Source: Deltaproteobacteria bacterium
GTDB taxonomy: Bacteria; UBA10199; SBBF01
Assembly: GCA_016183175.1 (NCBI GenBank)
Contig: JACPFC010000037.1
Span: forward strand, 1 to 42,709
Length of the DNA stretch: 42,709 bases
Direction: 5' to 3'
In this document: positions 3,728 through 35,581 of the stretch, in pieces
Numbering within the stretch: the first letter of the stretch is position 1
Layout of the letters: each line of letters starts with the position of its first letter
The notes under the pieces: generated by a model
Told to the model about the DNA's origin: nothing
Seen by the model: the letters and a program-made list of their open reading frames with translations, nothing else
The model's database searches: none
Made by a program: the position numbers and the translations under genes

Positions 3728-5120
3728 TCAGAAAGAGCAAGCCGGCAAGATTCAGCAAGATCAAGATGAGTACCCACTGGCCCAACACCCCAGACCCCCG
3801 AGCCCGCTCCAGACTGCAACCGATCAGCTCCTCGCAATTGTCGAAATTCCCGCCGTCACCGCAGGTGGTAGAGGAGCCGGAACTGTCGTCACCATCGCCG
3901 CCGGAGGAGGTCCCCCCCGACGATTCGGTGGAAATGGTTCCGAGGTCGGTTGTGCTTCCCGCCGTGCAGTCGGTGACGGTGCCGATTTCTTCCTCCTCAA
4001 TGCCGGTCAACTGCCCCGACCCGCAGGGACCGACGCTACTGCCGCCAACCCACGAGGAGTCAATCGGCCTGACGGTAATGGTGTAGTCCTTGGCCGGATC
4101 GAGACCCCGCAACGTAAAGGCGCCGCAATCGGACAGACATTCCCCATCGCCGTCGGTATAGCTGTCGCCATCGGTATCCTCCGCGGCGGCAAAGGCGCCG
4201 GAGACGACGGCGATCGCGTCGGCCTCATCCACCGTCTCGGCCTGCACATCGGCGCACCGCAGATCATTGCCGTCGGTATCCTGAAGAACGCCGGTGACGG
4301 CGCAGAGTTCATCTTCCCATGTCGTCACACCGTAGAGCGTCAGCGCGGCCACCTCGTCGTCGCGGGAGGGGGTGATCTGGTCGGGGGAGTCGTAGGCAAC
4401 CGGGAACATGGTGGGAAGGGCATCGCAGTCGCCATCGCTGTCCGTATCGCATCCCGATTCGGCCAGATCCTGGTTGACCTGCGTGTGGTCGAAGCCGATC
4501 ATGTGGCCGATTTCGTGAACCATGGTGAAATCGAGATCGTCCTCGGTAAACTCCACCGCGGCATCGGCGCACTCGTCGTCGGTATCGTTGGGATTGTCGG
4601 CCAGGCAAAAGCAGTTGAAAAGGGCCTGACCGTCAACAATCTCCGAGCCGTCGTCGTTAAAGGCGTCGGCCCCCGCAAACCCGAGGACATAAAGTTTGTT
4701 GGCGCTTCCGAAGACATCCTCCACAATCTCCCCGTCATCGTCGAAGATGACCGGATTGAGGCTGTCGGTCTCCCCCGTGTCTCCGTCAAACAAGACAATA
4801 AAATCGGTGTAGTTGGAACCGTCCACCGATCCGATGGCGCCTGTCTCCAGATCGAAGGAGAACTGAATTTTTTCGATGGAACTCCAGTTTTCCAGATTGT
4901 CCGAGAGTAGGGTCAGCATCTGGGCATTCGTGAAGGTGGCGCATGCGCCCGATTCGGGGTTGAGTTCCACATCCCCCGAATTGTCCCAGGCGGCGGCCAC
5001 CCCTTCCTCGTTCACAGCAAGCGGCCCACCGGCGAAAACGGGTGAGGAAAAAAGAATTAAAAAGAAAAGAGGACCGATCAGGCCGAGGATGAATTTTTCT
5101 TTCTCTTTAGCAGGGCGCAC
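3669..5120 (-). CDS. Secreted matrixin-like metalloprotease, paralogue 1
   Basis: A predicted exported zinc endopeptidase of the metzincin/matrixin type. A signal peptide (Lys-rich start, then LGLIGPLFFLILF, cleavage near VFA-GG) precedes a long acidic domain. The zinc site HEIGHMIGFDH starts at residue 202 (H202, E203, H206, H212), and a TMFPV segment about 35 residues on supplies a candidate Met-turn. Aspartate-rich Ca-binding-like strings and paired cysteines follow, then a C-terminal GCSL motif, a membrane segment and a basic tail. The start is a GTG; it overlaps the end of the upstream paralogue by 43 nt, and no later in-frame start keeps the signal peptide. The final residues (about KVQMSKFKCQKKLK) are translated from repeat family B. 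Last gene of a four-gene operon. Substrate is unknown. Confidence 0.8.
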   Translation of the reverse strand: MRPAKEKEKFILGLIGPLFFLILFSSPVFAGGPLAVNEEGVAAAWDNSGDVELNPESGACATFTNAQMLTLLSDNLENWSSIEKIQFSFDLETGAIGSVDGSNYTDFIVLFDGDTGETDSLNPVIFDDDGEIVEDVFGSANKLYVLGFAGADAFNDDGSEIVDGQALFNCFCLADNPNDTDDECADAAVEFTEDDLDFTMVHEIGHMIGFDHTQVNQDLAESGCDTDSDGDCDALPTMFPVAYDSPDQITPSRDDEVAALTLYGVTTWEDELCAVTGVLQDTDGNDLRCADVQAETVDEADAIAVVSGAFAAAEDTDGDSYTDGDGECLSDCGAFTLRGLDPAKDYTITVRPIDSSWVGGSSVGPCGSGQLTGIEEEEIGTVTDCTAGSTTDLGTISTESSGGTSSGGDGDDSSGSSTTCGDGGNFDNCEELIGCSLERARGSGVLGQWVLILILLNLAGLLFLKVQMSKFKCQKKLKKDNVK

Positions 5121-19558: not shown

Positions 19559-19684
19559 GTGGCCGGAGAGGGGGCATTTTGGCGGAGCAATTTTTGTTCC
19601 CCGCCGGACATAGAGCCGGCGAGACAATAAAACTTCGGACGGCTTACAAAAATTGCGTAGCCGGAAGGCCCCCTCTCCGGCCAC
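19559..19684. other. Long palindromic element E1 with conserved core
   Basis: Perfect 17-bp outer arms (19559-19575 and 19668-19684), a 7-bp extension with two G-U pairs, then 11-bp inner arms GCAATTTTTGT (19587-19597) and ACAAAAATTGC (19646-19656). The apical part has a CGCCGG/CCGGCG hairpin (19602-19621) and GAGACAAT. It fits between the convergent stop codons of the TonB-like gene and apaG with two spare bases, so it could act as a bidirectional terminator. The core, but not the outer stem sequence, recurs at 35457-35581. Confidence 0.8.
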
Positions 19685-34686: not shown

Positions 34687-35457
34687 ATGACTCAACAACA
34701 CCACGCAGACCACAAAAAATCGTATGTCGCCGTCTGGATTATTCTTCTCATCCTTTCCGCTATCACCGTTTGGGTCGCCTATCACAATTACGGCATCTTC
34801 AACATCGTTGTCGCCATGGGGATTGCGACCATCAAGGCAACGCTCGTCTGCCTCTACTTCATGCATTTGAAATACGACAACCGGGTCAACCAGGTTGTTT
34901 TTGCCGCGGCCTTTGTTTTTCTGGGAATTTTTGTCGGCCTGACTGCCAGCGACGAACTCTTTCGGCCGACGGAGGCGGCGGCGCCGGTTACGGCGGTGCA
35001 GGCGCCTGCCGGCAATCAGGCCGGCCTGATGGAAAAACTGCGTCACTCAACAGCCGAGCAGATTGCCAAGGGAAAGGAAATTTACATGGCGCAGTGCATG
35101 GCCTGCCATGGCGCGGGCGGAAAAGGGGACGGCCCGGCGGGGGTTGCGCTTAATCCAAGGCCGCGTGATTTTACTTCCGGTTATTGGAAACAGGGAGGCG
35201 CCCCGGCACAGGTCTTCAAAACGGTGAGCGAAGGAATTGCCGGGACACCGATGCCCCCATTTAACAGCCTGTCGATCCCGGATCGTTGGGCGCTTGTCCA
35301 CTTTGTCCGTTCTCTCTCGCCCAATACTCCTTCCGACACTCCGGATACCTTGAAACTGATCGGTCTGGGCGAAGGGGCTTCCGCGGCATCGTCACAGGCC
35401 TTGCCGGAGATTCCCGTGGATTTCGCGATCGACCGGATGGTGAAGGAAAAACAGTAG
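34687..35457 (+). CDS. Cytochrome oxidase subunit IV fused to a cytochrome c domain
   Basis: The N-terminal ~85 residues are a subunit IV-type membrane module with three helices (VAVWIILLILSAITVWVAYH, then VAMGIATIKATLVCLYFMHLK, then VVFAAAFVFLGIFVGL). An Ala/Pro linker leads to a cytochrome c domain with C137-MAC-H141 (GAGGKGDGPAGVALNPRPRD follows) and GTPMPPFNSL as the axial Met region. Length 256 aa, against about 100 for subunit IV alone. With the CoxB domain, the oxidase would have two covalent c haems. I chose the ATG at 34687; the ORF could begin earlier with a TTG at 34672 that overlaps coxC. Confidence 0.88.
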   Translation: MTQQHHADHKKSYVAVWIILLILSAITVWVAYHNYGIFNIVVAMGIATIKATLVCLYFMHLKYDNRVNQVVFAAAFVFLGIFVGLTASDELFRPTEAAAPVTAVQAPAGNQAGLMEKLRHSTAEQIAKGKEIYMAQCMACHGAGGKGDGPAGVALNPRPRDFTSGYWKQGGAPAQVFKTVSEGIAGTPMPPFNSLSIPDRWALVHFVRSLSPNTPSDTPDTLKLIGLGEGASAASSQALPEIPVDFAIDRMVKEKQ

Positions 35458-35581
35458 CAAACAAAGAGAGGCCGTTTGACGAAGTAATTTTCGTTCCCGC
35501 CAGCCACATCTACCGGCGAGACAATCCAACTCTTAAGCGGCTTACGAAAATTGCGAAGACAAAGGGACTCTCTTTGTTTGC
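35457..35581. other. Long palindromic element E2 with conserved core
   Basis: Perfect 14-bp outer arms, GCAAACAAAGAGAG (35457-35470) and CTCTCTTTGTTTGC (35568-35581), and inner arms AATTTTCGT (35486-35494) and ACGAAAATT (35544-35552). The apical core shares CCGGCGAGACAAT and GGCTTAC with E1 (19559-19684). It begins at the last base of the upstream stop codon and ends 9 nt before ctaA. Same length (125 vs 126 nt) and layout as E1, but with unrelated outer-stem sequence. Confidence 0.8.

Follow-up and report, generated by a model that had tools for sequence, protein, structure and literature searches.

The hairpin elements E1 and E2 of the window, the whole 42,709-nt stretch of DNA that was analysed, are two copies of a previously undescribed interspersed palindromic repeat. 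The family to which they belong is a new MITE/RPE-like palindromic repeat, and it is unusual in that conservation is lowest in the outer arms and highest in the core. We consider it probable that these are non-autonomous, MITE-like palindromic repeats of about 126 bp that spread in trans and whose arms are remodelled by replication template switching. The data can be explained without any host function.

Two elements in the window

E1 is a complete element of 126 nt on the + strand (19559..19684), starting directly after the TAA stop codon of a TonB-domain gene, with the stop codon of the convergent apaG gene 2 nt away. In the predicted fold, the 17-nt 5' side of its outer arm (19559..19575) pairs perfectly with the 3' side (19668..19684), and the fold and the alignment together place the two strands of the inner core stem, P2, at 19587..19597 (GCAATTTTTGT) and 19646..19656 (ACAAAAATTGC). 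E2, a complete element of 125 nt on the same strand (35457..35581), has a COX4/cytochrome c gene on one side and ctaA on the other. Its folded outer arms are GCAAACAAAGAGAG (35457..35470) and CTCTCTTTGTTTGC (35568..35581), and its P2 strands, assigned as in E1, are GTAATTTTCGT (35484..35494) and ACGAAAATTGC (35544..35554). Folding energies were -76.6 kcal/mol for E1 (z -8.9) and -51.3 kcal/mol for E2 (z -7.4), and no shuffled sequence was equally stable in either case.

A sequence-only reading of the window had proposed both elements at these positions and lengths, with outer arms perfectly complementary within each copy (17 pairs in E1, 14 in E2) and a shared core in which one inner pair changes from T-A in E1 to C-G in E2, and all of this was borne out. 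It also had both elements beginning at or after a stop codon; E1 starts right after its TAA, and E2 shares its first base, a G, with the TAG upstream of it. The claim that the arms are unrelated between copies is true of the five divergent-type copies described below but not of this pair, as E2 carries the arm consensus GCAAACAAAGAGAGTCC, which is recognisable in most copies, and E1 is a diverged version retaining traces of it (GAGAG). On the + strand there is no T tract 3' of E1 or E2, and no intrinsic terminator was found at either. One terminator-like match lies inside E1 on the minus strand, which is near the shuffle expectation.

A repeat family in two genera

Copies were sought in the source genome (G000), in a genome from another genus of the same family (G002), in a further genome of that family (G001) and in 57 other genomes. 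The exact core pattern occurred six times in the source genome and not at all in the reversed control, and a pattern scan of genome contigs recovered five true copies in a single MAG contig set, JACQOY (G002), amid many chance matches in coding sequence. A covariance model built from 11 copies, with matches down to an E-value of 1e-33, found about 30 copies in G000 and about 28 in G002; the overall count for G000 is about 32, of which 26 are main-type copies, five are divergent and one is interrupted. The multi-copy family implied by the earlier reading is thus present in two genera. The same model found no copies in G001 or in the 57 other genomes, and a second model (R2), built from the divergent copies, again returned only G000 and G002.

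Main-type copies are 125-128 nt long and form one long stem-loop crossed only by short open frames. Most copies sit in intergenic gaps, and some lie in frame within coding sequence. No match was found in Rfam at the gathering score, and what appeared at relaxed thresholds was sub-threshold and belonged to unrelated families; viral, phage and plasmid searches were likewise without a match, in agreement with the initial impression that no known family was involved.

The five divergent copies of G000 (L069:5569-5746, L087:5076-5251, L088:5036-5158, L089:5032-5128 and L162:382-478, the last at contig 82:383) have common GGAGCAATTTTGTTCCC...CTTRCAAAATTGCG-like cores, apical loops of up to 95 nt, and self-complementary arms that are unrelated between copies. 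A half-site pattern run over 60 genomes matched exactly these five. Each of the five precedes a start codon by a few bases, all in the same orientation, and the genes downstream encode the class II dehydroquinase AroQ, an M20 peptidase, CinA, a CoaBC-like flavoprotein and AroE. This placement before start codons hints at a function for the divergent copies.

Covariation in the arms and the core

Covariation was assessed in an alignment of 53 main-type copies against 500 shuffles, none of which reached any of the covariation measures, so the covariation proposed for the family is real. Its character differs between the two parts of the hairpin. Fitch events, counted on an only approximate tree built from 136 columns, comprised 82 Watson-Crick double changes, 15 G-U, 10 A-C and 17 other mismatches in the outer arms, as against 19 double changes, 50 G-U and 7 A-C in the inner stems P1 and P2. 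Raw cell counts agree, with 22 G-U and 23 A-C in the outer arms and 58 G-U and 8 A-C in the core, where one column supplies 23 of the G-U. Because an A-C pair on one strand is a G-T pair on the other, these numbers mean that the arms have no preferred strand, whereas the core is constrained as the + strand. Conserved as it is with strand-polar wobble pairs, the inner core probably acts, or is recognised, as a single folded strand, be it single-stranded DNA at mobilisation or RNA. The sequence-only reading had taken a variable, covarying stem under a conserved apex as the hallmark of a structured RNA. That description of the outer stem and the core is accurate, but the outer-stem covariation is not supported as an RNA hallmark here, given that it shows no G-U excess and that the core is frequently inverted.

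Shared and empty sites

Synteny is conserved between G000 and G002, whose DNA is about 70-87% identical, and the element is present in both at nine loci, one of which, the cinA locus, holds different subtypes in the two genomes. At the other eight, the core has the same orientation in four and the opposite orientation in four, although the opposite cores could in part reflect independent insertions. The clearest inversion is L080:8599 against L092:2948, where the elements sit at an identical codon in one and the same signal-peptide-like reading frame; both are in-frame fusions to signal-peptide-like N-termini despite their opposite cores, and the pair L093:2322/L081:4251 is in frame as well. 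The arms at these eight sites differ by 14 compensated double changes and by 3 single changes to G-U or A-C.

Other sites are empty in one genome. In G002 the E2 site reads AAATAGTAGGTTTGAGACACC, with neither element nor palindrome, which at this site contradicts the alternative offered in the earlier reading, that of insertion into the loop of a pre-existing terminator. The elements L069:5569 and L065:1420 are missing from their G002 sites, the G002 element L099 has no counterpart in G000, in which the gene has a different 3' end, and the L093/L081 locus in G001, read by eye, is without the element. For E1, the upstream gene has no ortholog at the corresponding place in G002. In G001 the orthologous site is occupied by another, unrelated palindromic repeat (L164:1326-1505), and the L074:168 site in G002 holds another unrelated one (L209:5741-5835). 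Some intergenic gaps seem to be palindrome hotspots.

Flanks and candidate mobilisers

Inward-facing GTAAC was present in 20 of the 118 element flanks of G000 and G002, against about 1.2 expected, and some flanks carry the longer GTAACRGCTCRGGTGGTTCA. Near position 3951 of G002 contig 11 (L175/L190), a separate repeat bounded by GTAACTAC...GTTAC, with a perfect 8-bp duplication (TATGCCGC), lies beside a remnant of the hairpin arms. As GTAAC...GTTAC bounds a separate repeat there, it is at most a candidate for the element's own terminal repeat. There was no clear or consistent target-site duplication, flanks at about 70-87% identity being such as to blur any, and the arms, where terminal inverted repeats would lie, vary between copies.

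Searches for a Y1 transposase (RAYT) gave only a fragment in G000 and nothing in G002, an 84% complete draft. No IS66 DDE transposase was detected in the drafts, and no match to a reverse transcriptase (RVT_1) was found in G000. L122, on G002 contig 215, encodes a complete reverse transcriptase domain (RVT_1, E 1e-37) that G000 lacks. Among the enzymes searched, there was no transposase or recombinase attributable to the element.

Discussion

Under the explanation that we favour, the repeat would spread by a putative enzyme supplied in trans and, once inserted, its long inverted repeat would be remodelled by replication template switching. A nascent strand that copies one arm from the other would let the arms drift while they remain perfectly complementary, and an occasional flip of the spacer would leave the core inverted. 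Template switching between inverted repeats has been described as producing arm homogenisation and spacer inversion (PMC8604942), and its footprint as multiple compensatory changes, stem extension and inverted loops (PMC8794818). All of these published signs were seen directly here except stem extension. The likeness to quasipalindrome correction thus covers arm homogenisation, multi-base double changes and inversion of the whole spacer; the published cases, however, concern short inverted repeats and RNA genes, whereas here the process is inferred for a repeat family with spacers of about 80-90 nt and with sites common to two genera.

A functional structured RNA family, whether a small RNA or a cis-regulatory leader or 3'UTR element, with compensatory selection preserving its outer stem, would account for the strand-polar G-U bias of the inner stems (50 events against 7), for the conserved core motifs TTCCC, GAGACAA and GGCTTAC, and for the position of all five divergent copies immediately before start codons, in a single orientation. 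We nevertheless regard it as unlikely. The outer arms lack a strand bias (15 against 10) and show few intermediates, main-type copies follow no rule of orientation or gene class (from crude gene calls, used qualitatively), and no Rfam family matches above its gathering score. At four of the eight shared sites, moreover, the two genomes have the core in opposite directions beside the same gene, and with the core running either way, the sense transcripts of the neighbours cannot carry one conserved RNA. It is the missing G-U excess and the frequent core inversion that favour template switching over RNA selection for the outer arms. A somewhat different and tentative idea, to which we give slightly less weight, is that the conserved, strand-polar core may be the recognition hairpin, as single-stranded DNA or RNA, of a hitherto unknown mobilisation system, or may serve as a leader RNA where divergent copies lie upstream of aroQ, aroE, cinA and others, held inside arms that are free in sequence as only their complementarity matters.

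The other explanations concern where the arms come from and what moves the element. Arms that are the remains of old terminators, into whose loops a mobile element such as a group IIC-like intron inserted, would suit one core lying inside different arms, the A- and T-rich arm ends of some copies (for example L064 and L065), and the other palindromes that stand in place of E1 in G001 and at the L074:168 site in G002. Yet the E2, L069:5569, L065:1420 and L099 sites have no palindrome in the element-free genome, barring clean loss of the element, a single arm consensus runs through most copies, and no T tract follows E1 or E2 on the + strand. Against the group IIC version there are further the missing reverse transcriptase match in G000, the lack of an Rfam intron match, and a size of about 126 nt, well below what a group II intron requires; we judge this whole line of explanation very improbable. 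An insertion mechanism that copies flanking DNA as an inverted repeat, making new arms at each event, is suggested by the five divergent copies, with their unrelated near-perfect arms around a common core, but neither arm is present at element-free sites, the arm consensus of most copies implies that the arms travel with the element, and orthologous copies show arm change after insertion, all of which makes it quite unlikely. A REPIN-like origin, with a RAYT (Y1) transposase as the mobiliser, has in its favour the G(G/A)AG at the inner stem's foot and the Y1 fragment in G000. G002, however, holds 28 copies with no Y1 transposase in its 84% complete draft, and the repeat consists of a single long hairpin, about 126 nt in size, rather than two REPs of 20-40 nt, so that this origin too seems highly unlikely.

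Several attributes of MITE-like elements are found in the family. Its members fall within about 100-200 bp, are dispersed in many copies over one genome and fold into one long stem-loop that lacks a transposase ORF; they are present or absent at orthologous sites, and some form in-frame coding fusions. Among the MITE-like palindromic repeats covered by a review of bacterial MITEs (PMC2229807), it is closest to the Rickettsia palindromic elements (RPE), which are 105-146 bp long and found both between genes and in frame within proteins. The two resemble one another in length, in their long imperfect palindrome, in their many copies and in both kinds of location (PMC2229807). They differ in host group and in that the present family, for which the Rfam, viral, phage and plasmid searches gave no sequence match to any family, has its greatest variability in the arms and a core that is invertible and strand-polar. 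The same review describes the enterobacterial MITEs ERIC/IRU (127 bp) and YPAL/RU-2 (168 bp), including one YPAL ORF fusion that forms part of a signal peptide. These share with our family their size, a mostly intergenic location, a long hairpin transcript (theirs according to PMC2229807) and ORF fusions. ERIC, however, has TA ends and target-site duplications (PMC2229807), neither of which is evident in the present family, and the latter is confined to two genera of one uncultured family. The likeness to REP/REPIN sequences extends to an extragenic palindrome, a high copy number and G(G/A)AG near the hairpin foot, but no full RAYT was found in G000 or G002, hence no cognate Y1 transposase, and the architecture differs. 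No Rfam family provides a home for the repeat.

A functional RNA stem is ordinarily proved by covariation, and this family is a natural test case in which strong covariation seems to arise from DNA copying instead. Evidence that template switching maintains short RNA stems has been circumstantial (PMC8794818). Strand symmetry of G-U against A-C pairs, together with spacer inversion, separates DNA copying from RNA selection, and with about 60 copies and shared sites in two genera, this family makes template switching directly testable.
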